Source: an uncultured Bacteroidales bacterium (GTDB lineage Bacteria; Bacteroidota; Bacteroidia; Bacteroidales; Bacteroidaceae). From it: a stretch of DNA of 34,695 nucleotides. The notes below the pieces were generated by a model, which saw only the letters and a program-made list of their open reading frames with translations, was not told the DNA's origin and did no database searches. The position numbers were made by a program, and so were the translations under genes. Below are positions 2,858 through 34,695 of the stretch, piece by piece; the stretch's first letter is position 1, and each line of letters opens with the position of its first letter. The stretch covers positions 1 through 34,695 of the forward strand of contig CACZMI010000015.1 of the NCBI GenBank assembly GCA_902782245.1, given 5' to 3'.

Positions 2858-3304
2858 ATGAAACTGTTTTTCCCGGGATCGTTTGACCCCTTCACCATAG
2901 GACATGCCGATCTGGTTGAGCGCGCTCTCAATCTGGGCTGCGAGGTGGTGATAGCCATAGGCATAAATGAGGAGAAAAAGCCCATGTTCAGTACTGCAAA
3001 GCGTCTTGATTCCATCCGTAACTATTACAAAGGATACTCCCGTGTAAGTGTCATAGAGTATAAGGGACTTACGGTGGATGCAGTGCGTGAAAACGGTTGT
3101 GATGCAATTTTGCGCGGCATACGTTCAGTGACGGATTATGATAAGGAACGTAATCTGGCCGATATTAACCGAACCATTGACGGCGTTGAGACCGTACTGC
3201 TGGTATCAAATCCTGCATTCCAGCACGTAAGCAGCAGTCTGGTACGTGAACTCATATCTTTCGGACGTAATGCCGATGACCTTATGATAGATACTTTCAG
3301 ATGA
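2858..3304 (+). CDS. coaD: Phosphopantetheine adenylyltransferase
   Basis: A 148-residue nucleotidyltransferase that converts 4'-phosphopantetheine and ATP to dephospho-CoA, the fourth step of coenzyme A synthesis. The start GSFDPFTIGHADLVERA carries the TxGH motif for ATP binding, and the C-terminal FQHVSSSLVREL is the conserved (I/V)SSxxVR region. RGIRSVTDYDKE is also diagnostic. The length is within a few residues of other bacterial CoaD proteins. An AAGGA sequence lies just before the ATG. The stop codon overlaps the next gene's first ATG by four bases (ATGA), implying translational coupling in a parE-coaD-protease operon. Confidence 0.93.
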   Translation: MKLFFPGSFDPFTIGHADLVERALNLGCEVVIAIGINEEKKPMFSTAKRLDSIRNYYKGYSRVSVIEYKGLTVDAVRENGCDAILRGIRSVTDYDKERNLADINRTIDGVETVLLVSNPAFQHVSSSLVRELISFGRNADDLMIDTFR

Positions 3305-6547: not shown

Positions 6548-7699
6548 ATGAAAACGGGTATTGTGTCAAACACCAGACTGGCAATTGGCTTGTTTATTCT
6601 GCCGGTTGTCCTTTTCCTTCTGTCCGGCTGTCAGAAAAGACAAAAGGTTTGTGACACATGTCTTCATGAGATTTACGCTCCGCTTCTGGAGGATTCCCCT
6701 ACGGAATATCCCATAATGTCAAGCATGTTTGAACGTGTGGACACGGTGTTTCTGGAAAATGCGGGCTATGAGAGTATCATACCTTCGGTCGATGAGGTTG
6801 TTTCATTCAGTGACACCATCATAGTAAGATCGGCCAATACTCTTTTCTTCTTTAATGACAAAGGCAAGTTCCTGTACCGTTTTGACCGTCTGGGCAAGGG
6901 TACGGGCAATTATCGCACGATAGACCGTTTTGACATTCTTGAGCAACGGGGTGAGCTTTACATAATGGACGGTCATACCAACAATATCTTTGTGTATGGC
7001 ATGGACGGCAGTTATAAGCGCAGCGTTCAGATTGATGATTATGTATGTGACTTTGCGGTGCTGCCTGACGGCGATTTCCTTTTTGCCAATCCCATTAAAT
7101 ATACGGGTCGTAACCATCGTCGCGGGCTTTGGAAAACAGGGGCCGACGGTAGGTTCATTAAGCAGCTTGTCGAGTTTGACCCTGAATTCGCTCACGTGAG
7201 CTTAAATACCCCGTATATCAATCATATATGCCCTGGTGTGATAGGTTTTATGGGCATTGAAGATAATGACAAGTTCTATCACTACGCCGATGACAGCATA
7301 TCGGCCACCTGTCGAATGACAACCGATATCGTAATCCCCGATGAACTCAAACGGAGCGACAAGGTGTTTATAAATCCCCAGAAAGAGTATACCAAGTGTG
7401 GTTATCTGGAAACTCCCCGATTCCTGTACTTTGTAAATACAAACTACGGAGCCAACCTGATGATAGTATTCACTGACAAGAAAGACTGGACCACATACCG
7501 CATGTATGTCTATACGGGAGAGTTTAATCACGACAAAGAGACACGCGAGCCGTTCCCGTTCCTGGTGGGTTCATACAACGGCACTCTGGTGGGATTCTAT
7601 GATTCGGGCATGATTCTGGACAACGAGCGTTTCAAGTCCCTGTTCCCCACCATCACCAAGGATTCCAATCCCGTACTCCTCTTTTTCCGCGAAAAATAG
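6548..7699 (+). CDS. 6-bladed beta-propeller lipoprotein (Bacteroidales type)
   Basis: I chose the ATG at 6548 because it starts a clean lipoprotein signal: MKTGIVSNTRLAIGLFILPVV followed by lipobox LSGC. Upstream TTG/ATG codons in frame would put charged residues and the promoter region inside the protein. The mature part of about 350 residues begins with two further cysteines (CDTC) and contains propeller-like blades, for example FFNDKGKFLYRFDRLGKGTGNY, YIMDGHTNNIFVYGMDGSYKRSVQ and PDGDFLFANP. This is the layout of the 6-bladed beta-propeller (DUF4934-like) proteins common in Bacteroidales, which are surface or periplasmic proteins of unknown function. It is monocistronic between two terminators. 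The exact family assignment is from pattern and memory only. Confidence 0.65.
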   Translation: MKTGIVSNTRLAIGLFILPVVLFLLSGCQKRQKVCDTCLHEIYAPLLEDSPTEYPIMSSMFERVDTVFLENAGYESIIPSVDEVVSFSDTIIVRSANTLFFFNDKGKFLYRFDRLGKGTGNYRTIDRFDILEQRGELYIMDGHTNNIFVYGMDGSYKRSVQIDDYVCDFAVLPDGDFLFANPIKYTGRNHRRGLWKTGADGRFIKQLVEFDPEFAHVSLNTPYINHICPGVIGFMGIEDNDKFYHYADDSISATCRMTTDIVIPDELKRSDKVFINPQKEYTKCGYLETPRFLYFVNTNYGANLMIVFTDKKDWTTYRMYVYTGEFNHDKETREPFPFLVGSYNGTLVGFYDSGMILDNERFKSLFPTITKDSNPVLLFFREK

Positions 7700-23519: not shown

Positions 23520-25265
23520 ATGGCTGAAAAAAGCAAAGCTGAAGATTTTATTTTTGCGGCCGGAGTGTTGATCGTATCCTGGGTCATGCTTTTTGCCGAT
23601 GCTCCGTTCCGTTTGGATTTCAAGGAGCAGATAAGCATATTCCTTCTTGATGCAGACCGTATCAGTTGGTATCTCTCCAATCCGGCTGTCGTATCATCCG
23701 TAATAGGTGACTGGCTGACACAGTTCTACACCAACAGGGTTATGGCCCCGACGCTGAGCGTCATTCTTTTTGCGGCCATAATCATCGGCCTTAAAGACTT
23801 CTTCCGTAAGGCTGAACCCAATCGTCCCGACTGCCTGCCTCTTATGACCGTTCCTGTTTTGCTTGAGGGCTATTTCATGACATTTCCCAACTATCCCGTA
23901 TCGGCAACCGTAGGGCTGGCAATTTCGGTATGGGCTGCGGTAGGACTGGCAAGTCTCAAGAATTCCGGATACAGTTTCCTTATTTACGGATTATCGGTAC
24001 CTGTCATGTTTGTAATTGCGGGAGCGCACGCATTCACTTTGGCAATGCTGCTTGCATTCCTTAAGCGTAAGGACGGCATCGCCTCTTTGCTGGCCATAGC
24101 AACGGGTGTGGTAATCCTGATAATATGCGGTCGTTTTTATAACCTTACCCTGCTGCATACATTCCTCTGGCCGGTTTGGCCCGGTTACATCATTCCGCAT
24201 AAGGCTCTGATCCTGCTTATGCCCTGGCTGGTTCTGACAGTGATGATCCTGGCGCTCTTTTATGAAAAAGTCATGGATGCCCGTTGGTTGAGATACCTGT
24301 ACCCTATGATATTCATTCTCGGCATGTCGGTGTCGGGCGCCTTAAAGAACGATGAACTGGAGCGTACCGTCAAGATAGGAACCCTGGCATATCACGAGCA
24401 GTGGAAAGAGGTAAGACTATTGGCTCAGCAGAACATGGGAAAAACATACTACGCATACTATTGGAATGTCTGCAATGCGCGTGAAGGCAGTCTGCCTCAG
24501 GATCTGCTCAAGGGCCGATGGTCTTTGCCGGAGAATGCGCTGTTCCTGTCAACAGGCAAGGGTGACCCCTATTTCTCAATGATGTATTTCACCGATGCGC
24601 TATTGGAGATGGGCGATGTATCACAGGCAACAGACTGCGCTTTGCTTGCCCAGACCGTCATGCCGGGTCATTACTCCACCAGAATGCTGCGCCGTCTGGC
24701 TCAGATTGCAGTGATTACGGCCGATTATGACGTGGCCCGCAAGTATCTGAATATTCTGATGCGTACCCGCAACCACAGGGCATGGGCCCAGGATTTGCTG
24801 GAATCCATTAATACCGACGATATTCCTAAACAGTATCTGATATGGCGTTCCAGGACAGCGCCCAGAGACCGTTTCTTTGCGCAGGGCGATATAAGGTCAT
24901 CACTTGCCATAATAGCTCAGGAATGTCCTGATAACAAAGTGGCAATTGACTATCTGCTCTGCTCCAACCTGCTTGAGAAAAAACTCAACACATTTGTAGG
25001 CCTTTATGATAAGTATTATCTGAATTCCCTGGACAGAATGGTCGTAGTGCCGGACCTTTATCAGGAGGCTCTGCTGGTTAACGTTAACTCCAGGGAGTCA
25101 CTCATTGAGACAGCCCGGAAATACAATCTGTCGCAGGAAGTGGTTGATAAGTACATACATTTCATGGATGCCCGTTCTGCTGACCCCAATGTGCTTATTG
25201 ATGAAGCCCGGGGTACATACTGGCACTACCTGATGGCAGTAAAACTTAACAACAATCAGCAATGA
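23520..25265 (+). CDS. Polytopic membrane protein with helical soluble C-terminus, DUF6057-like
   Basis: I use the ATG at 23520 (MAEKSKAEDFIFAAGVLI), just past a promoter box and an AGAGAAG leader; upstream in-frame codons overlap the divergent promoter. Of 581 residues, roughly the first 270 contain about eight hydrophobic segments (for example FAAGVLIVSWVMLFA, LSVILFAAIIIGL, ALILLMPWLVLTVMILALFY). The rest is soluble and alpha-helical with TPR-like spacing (VSQATDCALLAQTVMPGHYSTRMLRRLAQIA, DYDVARKYLNILMRT). It resembles a Bacteroidales family I remember as DUF6057, with no known function. Its stop overlaps the following cytochrome-like lipoprotein gene by four bases. The context suggests a membrane partner for the exported lipoproteins. 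Confidence 0.65.
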   Translation: MAEKSKAEDFIFAAGVLIVSWVMLFADAPFRLDFKEQISIFLLDADRISWYLSNPAVVSSVIGDWLTQFYTNRVMAPTLSVILFAAIIIGLKDFFRKAEPNRPDCLPLMTVPVLLEGYFMTFPNYPVSATVGLAISVWAAVGLASLKNSGYSFLIYGLSVPVMFVIAGAHAFTLAMLLAFLKRKDGIASLLAIATGVVILIICGRFYNLTLLHTFLWPVWPGYIIPHKALILLMPWLVLTVMILALFYEKVMDARWLRYLYPMIFILGMSVSGALKNDELERTVKIGTLAYHEQWKEVRLLAQQNMGKTYYAYYWNVCNAREGSLPQDLLKGRWSLPENALFLSTGKGDPYFSMMYFTDALLEMGDVSQATDCALLAQTVMPGHYSTRMLRRLAQIAVITADYDVARKYLNILMRTRNHRAWAQDLLESINTDDIPKQYLIWRSRTAPRDRFFAQGDIRSSLAIIAQECPDNKVAIDYLLCSNLLEKKLNTFVGLYDKYYLNSLDRMVVVPDLYQEALLVNVNSRESLIETARKYNLSQEVVDKYIHFMDARSADPNVLIDEARGTYWHYLMAVKLNNNQQ

Positions 25266-26683
25266 AACGCAGAAACATCATATACCTGTTGCTGGCTCTT
25301 GTACTGGCGGGCTGTTCGTCAAGGCCGCAGGATACATTTCAGGGAATGTTCCCCGATTACACGGATATAACCATACCCTGCAACATAGCACCCCTTAATT
25401 TCAGGATTGCCAATGCATCGGCAATAAAGGTTCAGGTAAAAGGTATCAAAGGAGAATATTTGTTCCGCGGTCACCGGGGACTTGTAAAATTCCCCGTCAG
25501 GAAATGGCACCGTATGCTCAGTGCCGAGACCGGCAACACACTTACGGTAAACGTAACAGCCGGAGAGAACTATCGGGACTCATTCACGTGGACGGTTGCA
25601 CAGGACTCAATTGACAAATACATGAGTTACCGTCTGATTGAGCCTGCATATGAGGTCTGGAGCGGCATACAGATAGAGCAGCGTGACATTACAAGCTTCC
25701 GTACCCGCCTGCTGGGTGACAACCGTAACGCCGAGCTCTGTTGCATGAACTGCCACACGACAAACCGCAACGGCACATCATTCATGCACCTGCGCGGATC
25801 CAAGGGTGGCACTATACTTACCCGTGGCGGGCGCAACTATAAACTCAACACCAAGACCGATAACACCGGCGGCGGAGTATACGGTGACATAACCTCCGAC
25901 GGCCGTTACGCCGTATTTACCACAGCCGATATAACCTTTGCCATCCACAGCCGCACGGATATGAGGATGGAGGTGTATGATAAACGATCGGACCTGGTAG
26001 TGGTGGATTTTGACAACTTAACTGTAACCGACAACCCGTCCACCAGCGGCGATGAATTCCAGGAGACATTCCCATGCTTCAGTGCCGACGGCCGTACCAT
26101 ATTCTTTTGCCGTGCCCGTCATCTCACACAGCCGGACAGCATAGACCATATGCACTATGATCTTGCAGTAGTAGAGTTTGACCCCGAGACCGGCCGTATG
26201 GGTGACAGGGTTATAACCATAATTCCTGCAGGAGAGAACCTGTCATTCAGCCATCCCAAGGCATCACCCGATGGCCGCTGGCTTATGGTAACCGCCGCCC
26301 GGTACGGAACGTTCCCCGTCTGGCATAAGGAGAGTGAACTGTGGCTGATTGACCTTCAGACGCGCAGGATTGACGTGCTGCCGCAGGTAAACGCATACGG
26401 TGCCGATACCTATCACAGTTGGAGCAGCAACAGCCGTTGGGTGGCATTTGCCTCCAAGCGTGACGACCTGGTTTACGGACGTCCCTACATCGCGTACATC
26501 GGACCGGACGGGAAGGCGGGTAAGCCGTTTGTACTGCCGCAAAAGGATCCGGACAAGTATCTCACTATGCTCAAGTCATTTAACCTTCCGGAACTTTACG
26601 CTATACCTGAGATATACAACGCACGTGAGACTGCATCATTTTACAAGGATGTTGAGGCCGTGCAGTTAAAATATAAACAGTAA
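25262..26683 (+). CDS. Lipoprotein with one c-type haem motif and PD40/TolB-like propeller repeats
   Basis: A 473-residue protein beginning MKRRNIIYLLLALVLAGC, a lipoprotein signal with lipobox LAGC (Cys18). After an Ig-like or beta-rich N-terminal region, C161-M-N-C164-H165 forms a CxxCH haem c attachment site, with an additional Cys160. The second half has WD40-like PD40 blades: FSADGRTIFFCRARH, SHPKASPDGRWLMVTAARYG and SWSSNSRWVAFASKRDD. The likely place is the periplasm or outer membrane, with haem attached by the cytochrome c maturation system. Distal haem ligand and redox partner are not visible. It is coupled by an ATGA overlap to the upstream membrane-protein gene and followed after 11 bases by a small lipoprotein. 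Confidence 0.75.
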   Translation: MKRRNIIYLLLALVLAGCSSRPQDTFQGMFPDYTDITIPCNIAPLNFRIANASAIKVQVKGIKGEYLFRGHRGLVKFPVRKWHRMLSAETGNTLTVNVTAGENYRDSFTWTVAQDSIDKYMSYRLIEPAYEVWSGIQIEQRDITSFRTRLLGDNRNAELCCMNCHTTNRNGTSFMHLRGSKGGTILTRGGRNYKLNTKTDNTGGGVYGDITSDGRYAVFTTADITFAIHSRTDMRMEVYDKRSDLVVVDFDNLTVTDNPSTSGDEFQETFPCFSADGRTIFFCRARHLTQPDSIDHMHYDLAVVEFDPETGRMGDRVITIIPAGENLSFSHPKASPDGRWLMVTAARYGTFPVWHKESELWLIDLQTRRIDVLPQVNAYGADTYHSWSSNSRWVAFASKRDDLVYGRPYIAYIGPDGKAGKPFVLPQKDPDKYLTMLKSFNLPELYAIPEIYNARETASFYKDVEAVQLKYKQ

Positions 26684-26694
26684 AAAGCATTGAT

Positions 26695-27093
26695 ATGGCA
26701 TACAGGAAATTCAAGATAGCGCTGTCCAAAGGCTGGACATATATGATCTGCTCTCTGTCAGTGGCCGTATTGGCACTGGTGGGCTGCCGTAGCAAGAAAG
26801 AACTCCAGACGCAGCAGAAACCCGAGCCGTCGCAGGATGCCGCCGATGCGTCTGATGAGTACCAGACACGCGCCAACAGTCTGGCTCAAACTCTCATTCT
26901 GCCGAGTGACTCCAAGGAGGTTCAGGCAATGATCAAACAGGTAAACAGCCTCAAGAAGGACCTTTCGGACCGTATGAACTCCGTAATCTACGGAACACCC
27001 GAGGTAATGCAGCGCCGCGCTCAGGAGAACCGCGCCATGAGGGCCAGGATAGACTCCCTTGACAACGTAATCAACAAGGTCCGTCTCAAATAA
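26695..27093 (+). CDS. Small coiled-coil lipoprotein, candidate partner of the radical SAM enzyme
   Basis: 132 residues. The signal part KGWTYMICSLSVAVLALVGC ends in a lipobox LVGC (Cys31), followed by a charged linker and a helical segment rich in heptad-like hydrophobics (QAMIKQVNSLKKDLSDRMNS and RAMRARIDSLDNVINKVR). Between them is the string IYGTPEVMQRR. Short lipoproteins carrying a YGTP or YGxP string directly beside a radical SAM gene are typical of the Bacteroidetes rSAM/lipoprotein system (TIGR04133/TIGR04134 type), as I recall it. The stop is immediately followed by the radical SAM ATG with no gap, supporting a functional pair. Whether this lipoprotein is a substrate is inference. 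Confidence 0.6.
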   Translation: MAYRKFKIALSKGWTYMICSLSVAVLALVGCRSKKELQTQQKPEPSQDAADASDEYQTRANSLAQTLILPSDSKEVQAMIKQVNSLKKDLSDRMNSVIYGTPEVMQRRAQENRAMRARIDSLDNVINKVRLK

Positions 27094-28170
27094 ATGGACT
27101 CACGTTTGGGCTTAGCCAAAAGACTGCTTCTGGAATCGGGTCGTGCCGCATTCCGGACCCAGGTGTTGGAGCACAGACTCTCCCAGCTGTTCTGGGAGTG
27201 CACCCTGCGCTGCAACCTTAACTGTCGCCACTGCGGGAGCGACTGCCGTAAGACCGCCGGCCTGGAGGATCCTCCCATGAGTGACCTGCTGGGCGTTCTG
27301 GACAGCAGCCCTGCCGGTTTTGACCGCGGCAATTGTGTTGTTATAACCACCGGCGGCGAGCCTCTGGTACGCAAGGATATCATTGAGGTGGGCGCCCAGA
27401 TCAAACAGCGCGGATACCTGTGGGGAATGGTCACCAACGGAATGCTGCTTACACAGGACAAGGTGCGTGAGTTGGTGGATACCGGTCTGGACACCGTAGC
27501 CATGAGCTTTGACGGCTTTGAACCAGAGCACAACTGGATGCGGGGCAGTGACCAGAGCTTTAAGCGGGCCGATGCCGCCTTGGATTGGTTTAATGAGCAT
27601 CCCGCCCTTACGTGGGATGTCATAACCTGCGTAAACCGACGCAACTTCAATTACCTGAACGAATTCAAGGAGTATCTTATAAGCCGCGGCGTAAGGATGT
27701 GGCGCATATTCACCGTTGCACCCATGGGCAGAGCCGTCACGGAGCCGGAACTTATGCTGTCCGATGATCAGTTTACACAGTTGATGGAGTTTATCGTAGC
27801 CGTTCGCCGCGAGGGCAGGATAGAACTCAATTTCTCATGTGAGGGCTTTGTGGGCCGCTACGAGGGCCTGGTGCGTGACCATCTGTTCCACTGCATAGCG
27901 GGCGTAAGCGTAGCATCCATCCTTAGCGACGGCTCCATATCCGGCTGCCTGAGCATACGCAGCGACTACCATCAGGGCAACATCCACAATGATGATTTCT
28001 GGGATGTGTGGGAGAATGGATTCAAGCCCTACCGCAACCGCCGCTGGATGAAGACGGGGGAGTGCTCTCACTGCAAAGCTTGGCGGTACTGCCAGGGCGG
28101 CGCCATGCATTTGCGGGACTCTGCGGGCTCTATGCTTTCCTGCAACTACCTTAAAGTGACGCATTGTTAA
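27094..28170 (+). CDS. Radical SAM/SPASM enzyme, rSAM/lipoprotein system type
   Basis: A 358-residue radical SAM protein. The AdoMet cluster motif CNLNCRHC gives CX3CX2C at C40, C44 and C47, preceded by LFWECTLR (extra C36) and followed by GSDC. TTGGEPL is the GGE motif that binds SAM, and SFDGFEPEHNWMRG is highly typical of the Bacteroidetes family TIGR04133. A SPASM-like auxiliary-cluster domain follows with C267, C285, C324, C327, C333, C350 and C358 (CIAGVSVASIL, GSISGC, CSHCKAWRYC). Such enzymes usually modify peptides. The family occurs beside lipoproteins, as here. The reaction is unknown. It is the last gene of the four-gene operon, and a 10-base inverted repeat spans its stop codon. 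Confidence 0.82.
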   Translation: MDSRLGLAKRLLLESGRAAFRTQVLEHRLSQLFWECTLRCNLNCRHCGSDCRKTAGLEDPPMSDLLGVLDSSPAGFDRGNCVVITTGGEPLVRKDIIEVGAQIKQRGYLWGMVTNGMLLTQDKVRELVDTGLDTVAMSFDGFEPEHNWMRGSDQSFKRADAALDWFNEHPALTWDVITCVNRRNFNYLNEFKEYLISRGVRMWRIFTVAPMGRAVTEPELMLSDDQFTQLMEFIVAVRREGRIELNFSCEGFVGRYEGLVRDHLFHCIAGVSVASILSDGSISGCLSIRSDYHQGNIHNDDFWDVWENGFKPYRNRRWMKTGECSHCKAWRYCQGGAMHLRDSAGSMLSCNYLKVTHC

Positions 28171-28265: not shown

Positions 28266-28331
28266 AACAAAAAAAGACCTGAACTCCCTTGAAAGCAAGC
28301 TTTCAGATGATTTCAGGTCTTTTTTTGTTGG
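28264..28331. terminator. Large bidirectional terminator hairpin
   Basis: A perfect 20-base outer stem, 28264-28283 with 28312-28331, contains seven A residues on one arm and seven T residues on the other. It encloses a second 7-base stem TGAAAGC/GCTTTCA (28290-28296 with 28299-28305). The T-run fits termination of the radical SAM operon on the plus strand, and the symmetry would also stop minus-strand transcripts. No gene is seen in 28171-28517. Confidence 0.8.
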
Positions 28332-28415
28332 TGATCCGCTCGGGATTAGTTGCCCTTGATTTTATTGTCTTTAATTTGCCTGTATATTTATGATTATCAG
28401 CGACTTGCCAAAAAT

Positions 28416-28517: not shown

Positions 28518-29927
28518 ATGGCAACCTATTTTTCTTTCAAATCGGAGGGCTGTATTCTAGCCCGAATACGCGTCGGGAAGCGTTTTGATGGAGTGATTAA
28601 GGAAATAATCAACATCAAGAGAGTGATTCCAGATCTATATCTCCCAGAGGAATATTGGAACCATTATACTTCACTTACCAAAGATACTGCACGCGAAAAC
28701 TACCTTAAACACAAAGAAAAATTCCGTGATACCATTCAAAGGCTCAAGTTGATTCGTAAAAAGATTGACGCCTGCGGCACCGATATTACGTCTGCAAAAA
28801 TAGACGAGATCATTAATAGTGTCATTAATGCGGATATTATTAAAGAGCTGGAGGAGGAGGCTGCAGAAAAAGAAAAGAAGAGACTGCAGCAAGAGGAAGC
28901 TGAAAAGAAGAAAAAGCAGATGACTCTGACCAAGTTCATTGACCAATATATTAAGGATGTGAAGGATGGAAAGAGGACAACTCTGGCACATGGACGTACT
29001 TTTGTCCAGGGGTCACGGTTCAGCTTGACAAATTCACTTGGCCACTTCAAGGAGTTCATGGCAGATACCGGCGTGACATACGACTTCCAGGATGTGGACT
29101 TGGACTGCTATACTAAGTATAAGGCCTGGTTGATGGCTCAGGATATCAGCAAGGATAAGGAGGATCCTAAACATACTCCTGTTCACTATGCAGATAATAC
29201 TATAGGTGGTTTTATTAAGAAGCTGAAGTGTGTTCTGAGGGCTGCGGAGAGCCGCGGATATCCGGTTAATCCAGCTTATAAGAGCACGGAATTCAAGGCG
29301 CAGTCATCAGTTGATGTGGATACCATCTATCTGACCCGTGAGGAGGTGGAGAGGTTTGAGAAGGTGGACCTTACCAAGAAAGAGGACGGAAAGAACCTGG
29401 AACTTGCAAGGGATATCTTCTTGGTGGGCGTTTGGACTGCTCAGCGTGTGTCTGACTATAACAACCTGAAACCGGAGAATATTAAAGAGGTGGACAACAA
29501 CGGAACACCGATGACGTATATTTCCATTCACCAGCAGAAGACCGGCCGATTTGTGGAGATTCCATGTAATGCTAAGGTTCGTGCTATCCTGAATAAGTAT
29601 CCTAAGGGCCTGCCCCATCTGAGTGACCAGAAGATCAACAAATACATCAAGGACATTGGTAAGATGGCCAAGATTGATGATGTGATTGAGGTTAAGGGCA
29701 GCCGCGGTGGCCAGGTGATTAAAGAGTACTACAAGAAATACCAGCTGATTTGCACGCATACGGCGCGAAGGACGGGAGCCACACTTATGTATTTGGATGG
29801 CATTGCGATTTATGACATCATGAAGGTTACCGGACATAAGAGTGTGACTACTTTGGAGAAGTACATTAGGGCGGATAAGTTGGAGGTGGCGCAGAAACTG
29901 GTACTGAAGTATGACTACTTCAAGTAA
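28518..29927 (+). CDS. Tyrosine-type site-specific integrase
   Basis: A 469-residue phage/ICE-type integrase. An N-terminal arm-binding part is followed by a long charged helix (about 110-135, EEEAAEKEKKRLQQEEAEKKKK), a core-binding SAM-like domain (about 136-260) and the catalytic domain. Catalytic residues are readable as Arg310 (TAQRVSD), Lys341 (HQQKTGR), His414 and Arg417 (HTARRTGA), His440 (TGHKS) and Tyr449 (LEKYI), a complete set. It should integrate and excise the element found downstream. The gene points into the element and is followed by its own terminator. The ATG at 28518 suits the promoter and gives the usual MATYFSF-type start. Confidence 0.93.
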   Translation: MATYFSFKSEGCILARIRVGKRFDGVIKEIINIKRVIPDLYLPEEYWNHYTSLTKDTARENYLKHKEKFRDTIQRLKLIRKKIDACGTDITSAKIDEIINSVINADIIKELEEEAAEKEKKRLQQEEAEKKKKQMTLTKFIDQYIKDVKDGKRTTLAHGRTFVQGSRFSLTNSLGHFKEFMADTGVTYDFQDVDLDCYTKYKAWLMAQDISKDKEDPKHTPVHYADNTIGGFIKKLKCVLRAAESRGYPVNPAYKSTEFKAQSSVDVDTIYLTREEVERFEKVDLTKKEDGKNLELARDIFLVGVWTAQRVSDYNNLKPENIKEVDNNGTPMTYISIHQQKTGRFVEIPCNAKVRAILNKYPKGLPHLSDQKINKYIKDIGKMAKIDDVIEVKGSRGGQVIKEYYKKYQLICTHTARRTGATLMYLDGIAIYDIMKVTGHKSVTTLEKYIRADKLEVAQKLVLKYDYFK

Positions 29928-30083: not shown

Positions 30084-30131
30084 TATATTTGCGGCCGAGC
30101 CTGAGTTGAGCCTTGGCGGGTGGGGCTCAGG
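30084..30131 (+). promoter_or_regulatory. -7 promoter box followed by leader hairpin
   Basis: TATATTTG (30084-30091) is an exact -7 match. Right after it CCTGAG (30100-30105) pairs with CTCAGG (30126-30131), and GAGCC/GGCTC alternatives overlap, so the transcript would begin near a structured leader of about 200 bases before the 30322 gene. The remainder of the gap 29928-30321 is AT-rich and holds no convincing gene. Confidence 0.4.
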
Positions 30132-30213: not shown

Positions 30214-30284
30214 TGCTTGTTTGACAACCATGACACGGGAGCATTAGGGTGGATTGTATTAACCCATAAAACTTTCGACAAGCA
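30214..30284. repeat. Imperfect hairpin containing first copy of the 19-base repeat
   Basis: TGCTTGT (30214-30220) pairs with ACAAGCA (30278-30284). Inside, TTAGGGT (30244-30250) pairs with ACCC-A-TAA (30262-30269, one bulge). Bases 30263-30281 match 33990-34008 at 18 of 19 positions, same orientation. Confidence 0.5.
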
Positions 30285-30321: not shown

Positions 30322-30963
30322 ATGAAAGATCCTTTGTTTGAAGAGCAGCAGGCGATTATCGACAAGATCAACGAGAGTGAGTCGATTGATTGTTTTGACC
30401 TGGACTGCGAAGAATTGACTGGTGGATACCAGTTGGAGAGATTGCAAAAAGTAGTGTCCAAGATCAGGGGAAGACGCAAGAGGATTGCGACAGTGAAGGC
30501 GTGCCGGTCACAGTATGAACTGCACATCATACGGACCAACCACGAGTTTTATCAGGATAAGTGGGATTGGGACTGCGCTTTCAAGACATACTGTGACAAG
30601 CTTATTTGGGACCTTGAGGAGGGCGAGGCTTTTGTTGCCAATAATGAGTTAGCCTTACATCTTAGAACTGAGCACGACAAGGTGCTTGCAGCTATGGAAT
30701 CAGAGAAGGCGAAGACGCTGTTTAAGCGCATACCGCCTATGTATTACGATGGCAAGAGGTGGCACAAGGATGTGCCCAAAACTATAATCAGCCAGTTTGT
30801 CCAGATCCTGAGCGGGATATTACGTATCCCGGACAGGAAGAAGTGGGTGTATTTTGAGCGATATTGGGATATCACCGGACTATCCAAGGCATATTACTCG
30901 CGTAATGGCCGTGGGCTGGACAAGGAAATCAAGCAGCTATTCCCCGAATATGAAGGGGTATAA
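30322..30963 (+). CDS. Unrecognised 213-residue protein of the mobile element
   Basis: I do not recognise this protein. I choose the ATG at 30322 (MKDPLFEEQQAIIDKINES) over the GTG at 30304, which lies in a promoter-like TAACTTTA string. It is soluble and mainly helical, with a basic patch KIRGRRKRIATVKACR (about residues 46-61), a tryptophan/aspartate-rich stretch QDKWDWDCAFKTYCDKLIWDLEEGE, and a C-terminal part PPMYYDGKRWHKDVPK to FPEYEGV that could be a compact DNA-binding fold. No signal peptide or membrane segment is seen. It sits alone between the structured 5' region and a terminator, so it has its own transcript. Possible roles include element regulation or anti-phage cargo; neither is shown. 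Confidence 0.6.
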   Translation: MKDPLFEEQQAIIDKINESESIDCFDLDCEELTGGYQLERLQKVVSKIRGRRKRIATVKACRSQYELHIIRTNHEFYQDKWDWDCAFKTYCDKLIWDLEEGEAFVANNELALHLRTEHDKVLAAMESEKAKTLFKRIPPMYYDGKRWHKDVPKTIISQFVQILSGILRIPDRKKWVYFERYWDITGLSKAYYSRNGRGLDKEIKQLFPEYEGV

Positions 30964-31160: not shown

Positions 31161-31211
31161 GAGAGTTGTTTGCGACCAATCAATTAAAGTTCAACTTAAA
31201 CAAACGTGATT

Positions 31212-31526
31212 ATGGAATTAGAAAACAGTAGAGTACTTGCATCAATTACTGTTGGTGAGTATAAGGAGATGCTCAGCCAGATGCTGGATGAGAAGGTAAC
31301 ACCAAAGGAGGCACCTCATGTTATGGGCCATGGAATCAAGTGTATCATGGAGCATTTTGGAGTTTCGAAGACTACGGCACAAGGCCTGAAGGACGGATGC
31401 CTGAAGGATGCGGTGATGCAGAACGGGCGTAAGATTCTGGTGGACTTGACGCTTGCCGAGAAGCTATACGATATGAGACGCTACTACAAAAGCCAGCAGA
31501 GGTATGGAAACTGGGAAGAAGACTGA
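31212..31526 (+). CDS. Small DUF3853-like HTH protein (excisionase/regulator type)
   Basis: 104 residues from the ATG at 31212; a GTG two codons earlier is also in frame. The core GIKCIMEHFGVSKTTAQGLKDGCLKDAVMQNGRKILVD has the layout of the Bacteroidales DUF3853 family and of MerR/excisionase-like winged helices: helix, turn (GVSKTTA), recognition helix and wing (GRKILVD). Such proteins usually stand directly before the primase genes of Bacteroidales islands and may control excision or replication-gene expression, like AlpA of P4-type elements. Its 3' end overlaps the next gene by 23 bases. Confidence 0.65.
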   Translation: MELENSRVLASITVGEYKEMLSQMLDEKVTPKEAPHVMGHGIKCIMEHFGVSKTTAQGLKDGCLKDAVMQNGRKILVDLTLAEKLYDMRRYYKSQQRYGNWEED

Positions 31527-32079
31527 AAAGCGTGAGTTCTGGAAGCCGGTACCGCAGACTTTCTCCATACTCAAGGCGGGCAGTAAGATACTGAAGCCAT
31601 ACGGAGTGATGGATCCTTACGCGGCATACAAATACATAAGGGATGGCGTATCACGTGAGCAGACGGAGAAGCTGCGCAGCATCATGGACCCGAAGGAGTT
31701 CCGGAAGTATAAGTTCAATGCTTTTGAGATGGCACTGTTTAGCGGGGTGTTCAGCAAGAAGGACAAGAATGCCCTGACGAAGGCCACGGGATATGTATGC
31801 TTTGACTTTAACCATGTATCTGTACAGCAGACCAAGGACATTCTGATGGGACTGGAGCAGTTTGAGACAATACTGCTGTTTACCAGCGCATCAGGGCACG
31901 GCGTGAAATGGGTGGTGAACAACAACTTTGTGTTTGAGCATGAGGATTTTTACAACGTGGTGAGCAACTACCTGTGGGAAAAGTATAGGATAGAGGCGGA
32001 TAAGAATTCAAACGGAATTGCAACCGGTTGCCTGCTGCCTTATGATCCGGAGGTGTATCTAAACCCGAATTACATGTAA
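31504..32079 (+). CDS. BT4734/BF3469-type protein (VirE N-terminal, primase-like)
   Basis: 191 residues beginning METGKKTEKREFWKP inside the upstream gene. The central part GYVCFDFNHVSVQQTKDILMGL and TILLFTSASGHGVKWVV matches the BT4734/BF3469 (VirE_N) family of Bacteroidales mobile elements. These carry an archaeo-eukaryotic-primase-like core: an acidic strand (D101, with N103 where I would expect a second acid) and a SxSGxGxK segment (S128-K135). The end CLLPYDPEVYLNPN is also family-like. In these elements it pairs with a PriCT-2/DUF3987 protein, which follows after four bases. A role in priming or initiating replication of the element is likely but not proven. Confidence 0.7.
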   Translation: METGKKTEKREFWKPVPQTFSILKAGSKILKPYGVMDPYAAYKYIRDGVSREQTEKLRSIMDPKEFRKYKFNAFEMALFSGVFSKKDKNALTKATGYVCFDFNHVSVQQTKDILMGLEQFETILLFTSASGHGVKWVVNNNFVFEHEDFYNVVSNYLWEKYRIEADKNSNGIATGCLLPYDPEVYLNPNYM

Positions 32080-32083
32080 GGCG

Positions 32084-33895
32084 ATGAGTGAGACGAAGTT
32101 TGATCTTGGCAGATGGTTGAACGCGGACCGTGGCGACGAGCAGGAGTCACGGTCCGGGGAAACCTGCGGATGGACTCAGCAGAACTATCTGTTTGAGCAT
32201 GTGGAGACGCTGGTGAGTGAGATTGAGGCAAGCCTGGTAAATCTAACCAAGACATATGAGGAGTGGCTTAATATAGGCTACTCTCTGGCTGATGGTTTGG
32301 GTGCAAACGGGCGGATATACTTCCATAGGTTGAGCCTGCATAACCCGCATTACAGCTTTGACAAGGCGGAGATATTGTATGCCAAGTGCATGAGTGGAAA
32401 GAGAGAGGGAATTACCATCTGTTACCTGTTCGACAAAGCCCGGGAAGCGGGGATAAACTATGAGTTTACGAAGAGTGGCAAACCGTCAAAACCGACAAAA
32501 CCGACAGGTGTCGGTAAAATTGACGACACGGAAACCGACACGGTGTCGGTTCTGTCGGTTTTGTCGGATGATGGACCATTACCGACTTTTTCAGACCAAG
32601 TTGAGGGTTTGTTGCCCGGATTCCTGGGGCTGATATCGGTGTATGGGCAAACATATCAGGAGAAGGATGTGCTGCTGCTTGGGGCGATTGTAACTCTGTC
32701 AGCCTGCCTGCCGAATGTGTATGGACGGTATGCCGGTATGGAAGTGTATCCCAACCTTTTCTTCTTTCTGACAGCAAGGGCCAGCAGCGGTAAGGGGCGG
32801 TTGAACTTGTGTAGGCTGCTGGTACAGCCCATCCATGACAAACTCTATAAGGAGTACCAGGCAGAAAGGAAGGAGTACCTGAAGCAGAAGGCAGCTTATG
32901 AGGCCCGGAGGTCAAAGTGTATGGTGAAGCCGGATCCACCTATAAAGCACCTTTTGTTCATACCGGCTAACAGCAGCGCAACATCAGTCTATCAGATACT
33001 GAGTGAGAGCGATGAGCGCGGGCTTATATTTGAGACTGAGGGTGATACTCTGGCTTATGCTTTTGCAAGCGACTTTGGCAATTTCAGCGATGGGTTCCGG
33101 AAGGCCTTTCACCATGAGCCGATAAGTTACCACCGGAGGACTGATGATGAGCATGTGGACATAAAGCACCCTCAGTTGAGCACGGTATTGAGCGGCACGC
33201 CTGAGCAGCTGAGAAGCCTGATACGTGACACTGAGAACGGATTGTTCAGTAGGTTCATTTTTTACAGCATGAATACGGGACTGGACTGGATGGATGTGTT
33301 TTCCTTACCAAAGGGGCCCAGCCTGGATGATGAGTTTGCGGAGATGGGCCATACGTTCACTGCTTTTTATGAGAGGCTGTGCAAGACAAGAAGGCTGTAC
33401 TTTCAGTTCAAGCCCAGCCAGAATGAACGGTTTCACAGATACTTTAGTCAGCTGCAGTTTGAGCTATACAACAGATACGGCGAGAACATGATAGCCAGTG
33501 TGCGGCGAATGGGTCTGATATTCTACCGTATTGCCATGATATTGACCACCCTTAGGATAATGCAGCACGGCGATTACGTATCTGATATGTGTTGCCTGGA
33601 CATAGACTTTGATAACACGATGAAGATTGTGAACGTGATTATACAGCATACGGTATCCGTGTATAAGGATTTGTGCTCTATTCAGACTGCGCTGAAGGAG
33701 GCAAACATAAGCATAAGGGAGAAGTTCTACAGGGAGTTGCCAATGGAGTTTGACTGGGATGCGGTATGGCAGAAGGCGCAGATGATGAGGATTAGCAACA
33801 GGACTGCAGAAAGGTATATAGCCCACTATTGCAAGGTGGGAGCCCTGGTAAAGGAGAGCACGGGGCTGTACAGGAAGGTGGAGCCGGTTGGTTGA
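32084..33895 (+). CDS. PriCT-2 + DUF3987 primase/helicase-like protein
   Basis: 603 residues. Residues about 45-130 (TYEEWLNIGYSLADGLGANGRIYFHRLS to YLFDKAREAGI) resemble the PriCT-2 primase C-terminal domain. A low-complexity linker follows (KPSKPTKPTGVGKIDDTETD, then VSVLSVLSDD). The DUF3987 domain has a Walker A-like ARASSGKGRLNL (K237) and an acidic strand GLIFETEGDTLA (E317, E319). The segment TVLSGTPEQLRSLIRDTENGLFSRFIFYSM is typical of DUF3987. With the preceding primase-like protein it would make a split primase-helicase, comparable in concept to P4 alpha. The linker's DNA contains an unusual array of CCGACA dyads. A strong promoter overlaps the stop codon. Confidence 0.75.
   Translation: MSETKFDLGRWLNADRGDEQESRSGETCGWTQQNYLFEHVETLVSEIEASLVNLTKTYEEWLNIGYSLADGLGANGRIYFHRLSLHNPHYSFDKAEILYAKCMSGKREGITICYLFDKAREAGINYEFTKSGKPSKPTKPTGVGKIDDTETDTVSVLSVLSDDGPLPTFSDQVEGLLPGFLGLISVYGQTYQEKDVLLLGAIVTLSACLPNVYGRYAGMEVYPNLFFFLTARASSGKGRLNLCRLLVQPIHDKLYKEYQAERKEYLKQKAAYEARRSKCMVKPDPPIKHLLFIPANSSATSVYQILSESDERGLIFETEGDTLAYAFASDFGNFSDGFRKAFHHEPISYHRRTDDEHVDIKHPQLSTVLSGTPEQLRSLIRDTENGLFSRFIFYSMNTGLDWMDVFSLPKGPSLDDEFAEMGHTFTAFYERLCKTRRLYFQFKPSQNERFHRYFSQLQFELYNRYGENMIASVRRMGLIFYRIAMILTTLRIMQHGDYVSDMCCLDIDFDNTMKIVNVIIQHTVSVYKDLCSIQTALKEANISIREKFYRELPMEFDWDAVWQKAQMMRISNRTAERYIAHYCKVGALVKESTGLYRKVEPVG
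32492..32567. repeat. Seven CCGACA hexamers in dyad arrangement inside the helicase gene
   Basis: CCGACA occurs at 32492, 32501 and 32535. Its complement TGTCGG occurs at 32509, 32544, 32553 and 32562. The outer 16 bases 32492-32507 are the exact reverse complement of 32552-32567. Near-copies lie at 32484 (CCGTCA) and 32582 (CCGACT). The array encodes only the low-complexity linker. Confidence 0.8.
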
Positions 33896-33922
33896 CAAAT
33901 AAAGATTTATGCATTATCTTTG
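33892..33922 (+). promoter_or_regulatory. Canonical promoter at the end of the helicase gene
   Basis: TTG (33892-33894), 20 bases, then TATCTTTG (33915-33922), the best -33/-7 pair in the window. It overlaps the DUF3987 stop codon and drives transcription into a region without a credible protein gene, starting near 33929. Confidence 0.7.
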
Positions 33923-33989
33923 CAAACGCCTAGGACAAATAGCCCCAGGTGATTTAAGTACGAAGGAATTCTGCTTAAGTTCCGCTTCA

Positions 33990-34008
33990 CCCATTAAACT
34001 TTCGACAA
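33990..34008 (+). repeat. Second copy of the 19-base direct repeat
   Basis: CCCATTAAACTTTCGACAA matches 30263-30281 (CCCATAAAACTTTCGACAA) at 18 of 19 positions in the same orientation. It forms the base of the left arm of the long hairpin. The two copies flank the 3.7-kb block of four element genes. Confidence 0.65.
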
Positions 34009-34151
34009 TTAAATTGAACTTGAAGTTGGAACAAGAGCTGGATGCCTGTGTGAGGTGTATATGTAAACCCAAAAGGGTGATTCATATCTCCCTCCGCATG
34101 GCATCGGAAATCTTGTTCATTTCAGTTCAAGGGTGTCGAAAGCCTAATGGG
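33990..34151 (+). ncRNA. Candidate structured RNA or hairpin DNA element, about 57 pairs
   Basis: A single long imperfect hairpin. From outside to tip the paired blocks are 33990-33996/34145-34151, 33999-34007/34134-34142, 34014-34019/34125-34130, 34021-34024/34121-34124, 34029-34036/34111-34118, 34041-34046/34100-34105, 34047-34050/34095-34098 (one G-T), 34052-34055/34091-34094, 34059-34063/34083-34087 and 34067-34070/34075-34078, with an AAAA tip. It lies about 70 bases after a canonical promoter. No family is recognised. It may act as RNA or as folded single-stranded DNA. Confidence 0.55.
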
Positions 34152-34195
34152 GGGATGGACGTAGAACCGGTGTCATGCGGTTTATTTTTATCCCC
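34151..34195 (+). other. Second hairpin following the long one
   Basis: GGGGAT (34151-34156) pairs with ATCCCC (34190-34195), enclosing AACCG/CGGTT (34165-34169 with 34178-34182). A T-run follows further on (34217-34225), so this could be the end of a short transcript. Confidence 0.45.
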
Positions 34196-34695
34196 TTGGT
34201 CAATTCCGGTATATAAGTTTTTTTTCACTTGAGCGATGGCGCAGCATCCTGCTGGCCAGCACCCTCCACGACCTCTATACAATACATTACAGCCCACCAC
34301 GTGTAAGCCAGCAGAATTCTGCCAGGCTTGGATGACAGTTGGCCGATGGCGGAGCTCAAAGGCCACCGGCCGAATGAGCAGCTGCTGGCCAGCCCACTGC
34401 AAACAATGAGAAAAGTTGTGATGGGAACGGTGTGTCTTGGGATGACGGCGGCAGTGTGCAAAAAGAAAAGGAGCACAATCTCTTGTACTCCTTCTCCATC
34501 TTAATCGATTACCTATCCGATGAGGTATCTCCCAAAGTATTCCTCGCCATCAAAGAGAATCAGATCCAGATAATAGACAGCCTTGCGGATTCGGGGATGA
34601 CATTGATTTTTGGAACATGAATAAAAGTTTATCTTTTTCGTTCATGCGGATATTATCAGAATAACCGTCTTTTGTTATTTGATACCCACATGGCT
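34196..34695. other. Right-hand region with repeats and no assignable gene
   Basis: The first part (34229-34400) is GC-rich with two direct copies of a composite unit: CGATGGCGnAGC (34234-34245 and 34344-34355), each followed by the palindrome GCTGGCCAGC (34251-34260 and 34384-34393). A 62-residue frame at 34432-34620 (ending [13 protein letters not shown]) reads fairly like protein but has only a GTG start and no recognised relative. The last 75 bases are AT-rich. I cannot name a gene here. Confidence 0.4.

Follow-up and report, generated by a model that had tools for sequence, protein, structure and literature searches.

Directly after the primase-helicase genes of an uncultured Bacteroidales bacterium lies an imperfect hairpin of 162 bases, and the question it raises is whether so long a palindrome serves the DNA, as a site of replication or recombination, or is part of an RNA. 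The window, i.e., the whole stretch of 34,695 nucleotides analysed here, is an entire contig of a 2.5-Mb draft genome, and statements about the neighbourhood stop at its right edge. A first-pass annotation had proposed a structured regulatory RNA, a folded single-strand origin or recombination site, a retron msd-like hairpin or a palindromic MITE. We favour, with a probability of about 0.6, the reading that the hairpin represents the ground state of a transcript of about 265 nt, which would belong to a broad class of Bacteroidales leader RNAs, two-state and attenuator-like. A promoter box, a conserved structure, a terminator-like end, likeness to the class and two sets of helices, both conserved and each excluding the other, were shown for it by sequence comparison.

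The hairpin and the element around it

On the plus strand, the minimum free energy (MFE) of positions 33990-34151 was -74.0 kcal/mol, compared with a mean of -36.8 (SD 3.6) for dinucleotide shuffles (z -10.25). None of 200 shuffles was as stable, in agreement with the earlier judgement that the structure exceeds chance. The minus strand folded nearly as stably (-70.0 kcal/mol, z -10.2). The long nested hairpin that had been described is present, with the ACCC-AAAA-GGGT tip in place; however, the MFE structure contains 61 pairs in 11 nested blocks rather than about 57 pairs in ten. The statement that it is not a terminator holds for the hairpin itself, which is followed, however, by a terminator-like stem and a T-rich run. 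The following parts were assigned.

33892-33922 (+): promoter P2, TTGACA and the -7 box TATCTTTG (33915-33922), of the TAnnTTTG type
33927-33951 (+): small 5' stem of the RNA (MFE fold)
33965-33983 (+): strand x, in the linker; its partner in the alternative fold is 34028-34046 (x'), and the left arm is then enclosed in a loop
33990-34151 (+): whole hairpin, the resting fold (fold, covariation, match to the model R2 described below)
33990-34007 (+): left arm LA, with a variable outer box, the AAA strand of an internal loop and the inner box TTTCGACA (inverted repeat I2; covariation helices 1 and 2)
34037-34055 (+): strand a, which forms the 5' side of the conserved apical stem (helix 4, with 95% of its cells paired and two-sided change absent)
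34067-34078 (+): apical tip ACCC-AAAA-GGGT (MFE fold)
34094-34107 (+): strand a', 3' side of the apical stem, complementary also to 34167-34180 (14 bp, -26.8 kcal/mol)
34134-34151 (+): right arm RA (inverted repeat, element-specific matching, covariation)
34160-34189 (+): terminator-like stem, with its 3' half t' at 34167-34180 and a T-rich run after it (fold and by eye)

The hairpin lies in an element with an integrase and a primase operon.

28518-29927 (+): tyrosine recombinase, the integrase (PF00589, PF13102; PHROG integrase)
30084-30091 (+): P1, probable promoter box TATATTTG ahead of the primase operon (sequence)
30261-30281 (+): LS, which repeats the left arm in direct orientation about 42 nt ahead of the first ORF of the operon (sequence comparison)
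30322-30963 (+): first operon ORF, protein of unassigned function (no Pfam or PHROG match; position conserved)
31206-31526 (+): DUF3853 protein (PF12964)
31504-32079 (+): protein with a BT4734-like N-terminal domain, probable primase part (PF08800; PHROG DNA primase/helicase)
32084-33895 (+): PriCT_2 and DUF3987 protein (PF08707, PF13148), which we take to be the helicase part
34229-34440 (+): right-end region, with repeats like TTGGNCGATGGCGGA (34229 and 34339) and the END motif CGGTGTGTCTTGG (34428), at fixed spacing

The shared repeat noted previously is real: 30259-30281 and 33986-34008 are 91% identical over 23 nt. The gene order from integrase to primase operon is kept in relatives of the window's genus, and boxes resembling P1 were found upstream of the LS repeat in L017, L018 and L021. 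A DNA search of 61 genomes gave 13 places in 11 genomes, all within this genus. The integrase was matched in 12 of 393 genomes, including the window's own, and tblastn at 12 loci in 11 other genomes found no primase genes near its distant relatives. Additionally, an inverted repeat with 24-nt arms (92%) occurs at 32483-32567, within the PriCT_2/DUF3987 gene.

At the right end, the distance from the common core of the hairpin to END was 376 bp in all 10 loci with a match to each of the two motifs, and L023 was consistent via its second motif (338 bp, as in the other loci). Despite this fixed distance, large parts of the sequence between core and END are only 39-50% identical. To the right of the hairpin, a region of about 290 bp (34191-34440 in the window) keeps its length in the class A loci defined below, with the spaced TTGGNCGATGGCGGA repeats and END, and holds no conserved ORF; the repeats are possibly integrase arm sites or iterons. 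Several elements share, at their left end, the motif GGTGATCCGCTCGGGATTA, which in the window precedes the integrase (28330-28348); in L014 and L016 a tRNA-like gene takes its place. These two loci are 98% identical up to END, immediately after which their cargo differs. Defence-like cargo adjoins the elements and differs from one to another (L014 7612-8514, L015 8849-11215, L016, L049 5472-7025, L024, L130 2576-5812); it includes DUF4062 and SNF2/ResIII helicase genes (Pfam) and genes that, by eye, are presumably of the Abi, AbiE and methylase types. The same radical-SAM gene adjoins the element in the window (24456-28154) and, in the opposite orientation, in genome G017 (L021 9700-13425).

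Compensatory change and the predicted transcript

Among 13 loci of the genus with a DUF3987 gene, 10 carried the window's type of hairpin (class A), one (L130, class C) carried a different hairpin of the same design and two (L124 and L125) had none. An eleventh class A hairpin was found in L024, from which the primase genes are absent and in which the left flank of LS is fused straight to the hairpin. Aligned without gaps from the common core, the 11 class A loci stayed in register throughout; MAFFT introduced a single gap of 1 nt, which is compensated and falls within the window's terminator. The covariation alignment consisted of these 11 loci, the window included, and comprised 10 distinct rows, about 7 of them independent (near-duplicates: L014/L016, L017/L018 and L021/L022/L024).

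Two-sided changes occurred in 16 of the 47 consensus pairs, a number reached by 1 of 500 shuffles. They filled 57 cells; the shuffles gave 17.1 ± 3.2, none of the 500 reaching 57, and sliding the partner by 1-3 columns gave no more than 24. Moreover, 93% of cells were paired, and consensus folding of 7 loci gave a z of -19.8 against 60 column shuffles. The first-pass annotation had named related islands without the symmetry or without compensatory substitutions as the finding that would count against the hairpin; the covariation of 16 pairs over 11 loci went the other way. These changes indicate that the hairpin structure is under selection. At variable pairs of 7 class A loci, GU filled 25 cells and AC 7, which points to the plus strand as the strand seen by selection.

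The box of P2 ends 68 nt before the hairpin and agrees with the Bacteroides promoter consensus TAnnTTTG (PMC7366714). A box of this type lies at an identical distance (-137 from the core motif) in all 7 non-redundant class A loci with the primase cassette, which bears out the earlier remark that the promoter favours an RNA; L024, which has no cassette, has a different promoter box, at -110. Several relatives have a GC-rich 5' stem (by eye). Downstream of the hairpin, a stem with a T-rich run was present in class A, the run being interrupted in L017, L018 and L023. Taken together, the hairpin is predicted to belong to a transcript of about 265 nt.

Relatives in other Bacteroidales and the genes after them

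A covariance model of class A (R1) found diverged relatives, namely class B, in the window's genus before TPR-like genes, and class D, in other Bacteroidales. A second model, R2, was built from five class D hits and contains no sequence of the window's genus; its seeds were R1 hits, so the two models are not independent. R2 matched 67 of 393 Bacteroidales genomes and 38 of 207 genera in a scan run on Bacteroidales genomes alone, and the E-values of both models are rough. When the locus was searched directly, the window hairpin scored 50.8 bits (E 8e-12 over 36 sources). The genome-wide scan scored 6 candidates per genome, so copy numbers from it are lower bounds; the window's own genome was not listed by it. 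Class D is multicopy, and its copies are mostly far apart on contigs, with no arrays among the matches listed. A 35-member alignment (A6, fitted to R2) showed two-sided changes in 31 of 37 pairs.

The arm helix has an internal loop, AAA opposite CC, between two boxes. The outer box varies widely among class D copies and yet stays paired, the copy's own partner being the best in 27 of 28 rows. For example, L138 and L139 are 90% identical over 239 bp and have wholly different outer boxes.

The link of class D to the strand of the downstream ORF is strict. Across 68 loci (28 and 40 more, with L145, near-identical to L143, left out), the first downstream ORF of at least 80 aa was on the same strand in 65, on the opposite strand in 0 and absent in 3; related pairs remain among them (L180/L181, L170/L203, L158/L206), so the 65 cases are not independent events. 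The upstream ORF was on the same strand in 38 loci and on the opposite strand in 27. The distance from RNA to downstream ORF had a median of about 105 nt and was at most 250 nt in 53 of 65, and TAnnTTTG occurred upstream in 57 of 68 loci compared with 71 of 1996 background windows. Judging from this arrangement, class D RNAs are gene leaders. In the class B loci seen, the downstream gene is likewise on the strand of the RNA. By contrast, a same-strand gene within about 250 nt downstream is lacking for the window RNA up to the contig end, and no plus-strand ORF of at least 80 aa starts between the RNA and that end. In L014, the next gene after the class A right end is on the opposite strand.

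The genes after class D RNAs are diverse, with many exported proteins and lipoproteins. By a rough home-made rule, the enrichment is modest: exported proteins made up 39 of 65 downstream ORFs compared with 41 of 104 control ORFs (Fisher p 0.011), and a lipobox was found in 19 of 65 compared with 9 of 104 (p 0.001). Class D-like sequences were also seen on plasmids of Bacteroides finegoldii (NZ_OY725942) and Phocaeicola dorei (NZ_CP072250), in L174 at about 3001-3102 and L175 at about 3001-3103, each preceding a same-strand hypothetical protein gene.

At the gathering score, Rfam 15 gave no match in the window and two tRNAs alone in 7 related loci, and at a loose threshold only chance-like matches appeared. 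Several Bacteroidetes motifs are listed in PMC2864571; those adopted by Rfam were below threshold in the window and the 7 related loci. The window hairpin was not found in plasmids and phages, and IMG/VR yielded nothing with two hairpin patterns and the DUF3987 protein as queries. We found no earlier description of the class in the open-licence literature. Two unnamed palindromic Bacteroidetes candidates of a 2021 survey, HMP_4078 and HMP2_4205 (PMC8040213), may, by their description, be pieces of this class. HMP_4078 lies near genes for D5 N-terminal and phage-integrase domains, which resemble those of class A, and HMP2_4205 near TPR genes, as class B does. However, they measure only 109 and 132 bp, and the survey's section on them has neither a two-state model nor a class. 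Most likely, the window hairpin is a member of a large gene-leader RNA family of Bacteroidales without a match in the public RNA catalogue. If this is right, a dominant group of gut bacteria carries a large regulatory RNA family unnamed in Rfam, often multicopy per genome and placed before accessory-looking genes, with a two-fold switch whose arm box varies from copy to copy.

Two mutually exclusive folds and their interpretation

Two alternative helices can form in the window RNA besides the hairpin. In one, strand x pairs with x', the strand before a; in the other, a' pairs with t'. We refer to the long-hairpin fold as T and to the fold with x:x' and a':t' as R.

All 10 of the class A loci tested have the a':t' helix, at energies of -20.8 to -26.8 kcal/mol. 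In the alignment of classes A and B, six of its pairs showed two-sided changes, and its paired cells and covariation score were above those of all 500 shuffles; its count of pair types was not outstanding (46 of 500 shuffles). The terminator stem t:t' showed little covariation, with one two-sided pair. For the x:x' duplex, the 8 cassette-bearing class A loci tested gave -17.3 to -24.3 kcal/mol and L024 gave -10.6; in 4 loci tested, 0-3 of 300 shuffles were as good. Complementarity between x and the strand preceding a was seen in 8 loci of class A and 5 of class B. Class C, of unrelated sequence, retains both helices (-24.5 kcal/mol for x:x' and -34.0 for a':t').

In class D, a':t' reached -20 kcal/mol or stronger in 69 of 69 loci (including L145, near-identical to L143), with the best register picked and without a shuffle control. 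Partners within a copy paired slightly better than partners from different copies, both for x:x' (-15.8 vs -13.4; own partner best in 1 of 28 rows) and for a':t' (-33.3 vs -29.9; 6 of 28 rows). Despite this slight advantage, 0 of 2000 permutations matched the observed sums for either helix. The exceptions were L024, without x, L049, without a', and L051, without a good a':t' (-15.1). In L049 (class B, 7195-7410), about 19 nt corresponding to strand a' were lost, possibly leaving a broken or locked switch.

Fold T was the more stable, its margin over fold R being 0-24 kcal/mol in class A, with a median of 16 in class D, so the hairpin must be opened by something. Because the two sets of helices are mutually exclusive and the hairpin set is the more stable, we infer a choice between termination and readthrough, with the hairpin as the off state. 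In fold T, LA:RA and a:a' would sequester strand a', the terminator stem would form and transcription would stop. Once the hairpin is opened, x would pair with x' and a' would capture t', the terminator's 3' half. The first of these pairings would place LA in a loop and the second RA, and RNA polymerase would read on. In most class D loci, readthrough would switch on the gene about 105 nt downstream. In class A, the RNA instead has the primase operon on one side and the element's right end on the other, with no clear gene before the contig end in the window, and we infer a regulatory link to the element.

Riboswitches, T-box and trp-type leaders are transcription-attenuation leaders. They share with the class a promoter, a structured leader, a terminator-like stem and mutually exclusive helices, and with class D and the class B loci seen a same-strand gene downstream. 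Unlike them, this class has no known ligand or leader peptide, and it has a very long arm helix with a box nearly private to each copy; the genes are diverse rather than of one pathway, and class A has no near downstream gene.

The regulatory RNA option thus draws on the constant-distance promoter box, the terminator-like end, the GU-biased covariation and the likeness to a leader class. Since the arm sequence is element-specific and repeated before the primase operon, the right arm could also pair with that leader in trans, a possible parallel to P4 immunity. In the P4 satellite, CI RNA pairs with seqA and seqC, terminating the replication transcript (PMC4825925). A stand-alone, trans-acting antisense RNA of this kind, whose right arm pairs with LS in the operon leader and keeps the primase operon off, is an unlikely but serious alternative. 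The primase-helicase operon is as in satellites, and P4 and the window element, as far as that source describes the former, are both integrating elements with a primase-helicase, in which a structured RNA lies among two direct repeats and one complementary copy. LS was present in the 9 class A loci in which the operon start is covered, and it matched the left arm at 14-18 of 20 positions. The duplex of LS with RA had -20.7 kcal/mol within and -11.4 between elements, the true matching being the best of 5040 permutations (7 loci). However, LS and LA differ at 57 positions, of which RA pairs with LS alone at 17, with LA alone at 20, with both at 5 and with neither at 15; RA thus shows no preference for LS, and the pairing has no support independent of the likeness of LS to LA. 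Furthermore, in two genomes the class B arm had no second copy within 3 mismatches, and the fetched stretches of classes B, C and D contained no convincing one. In three genomes, an 18-letter piece of the class D arm (up to 3 mismatches) matched 16 non-self places compared with 6 for the reversed control, so a second copy may exist in class D; none of the 4 places inspected folds as such a hairpin. Unlike the P4 RNA as described in PMC4825925, the window RNA has its own promoter after the operon and a pairing that is predicted; no homology between the two is known, and a repeat like LS is not shown for classes B and D.

The readings at the level of DNA start from the same repeats. Integron attC and CTX attP are folded sites, imperfect hairpins with boxes and an unpaired central stretch. 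The window hairpin resembles them in its boxes and in the internal loop between them, an integrase is nearby, and in L024 exactly the primase cassette between the repeats is missing, as if the integrase had cut it out between LS and the arm; the wholesale difference of the outer box between the close relatives L138 and L139 would also suit such a site. We consider this quite improbable, for the L024 junction could be an ordinary deletion between short repeats, the copies listed are mostly far apart and form no arrays, and the strict strand link to the downstream ORF, with a promoter, is not expected of a recombination site. The promoter and terminator-like end also set the hairpin apart from attC and attP. 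In addition, class D copies lead genes, and in the five class D loci tested, stretches of 9-14 kb contain no homologue of the integrase or of the primase genes found in the window, which makes recombination unlikely as a general role. An origin or single-strand initiation site for the adjoining primase-helicase would fit the position of the hairpin directly after these genes and the fixed-spacing repeats to its right; it is very improbable given the same five loci, the promoter and terminator-like end, and the hairpin retained in L024 without primase genes. The replication or recombination option of the first-pass annotation rests on the repeat, which is element-specific, and on the neighbouring genes. 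A DNA-level role, suggested by the LS/LA repeats and L024, is made less likely by the class D results and the downstream strand count. Hardly credible is a retron msd, a MITE or another functionless palindromic repeat. The structure is palindromic and class D is multicopy, but the ten window proteins scanned included no reverse transcriptase domain, and a conserved gene is what the compensatory change and the unvarying length and promoter distance point to, which leaves the MITE unsupported. If the two-state leader reading is right, the window hairpin is explained without a role in replication or recombination.

An extension of the two-state leader, which we regard as doubtful, is an addressable switch. 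The open fold would show the complementary arm strands in two separate loops, and the private, exchangeable address of each copy could read a matching trans site, DNA or RNA; in the window element, one copy of the address would lie in the RNA and another ahead of the primase operon, letting the RNA recognise the element it belongs to. Seen by eye, several loci (not L021) also hold a possible leader peptide directly after LS.
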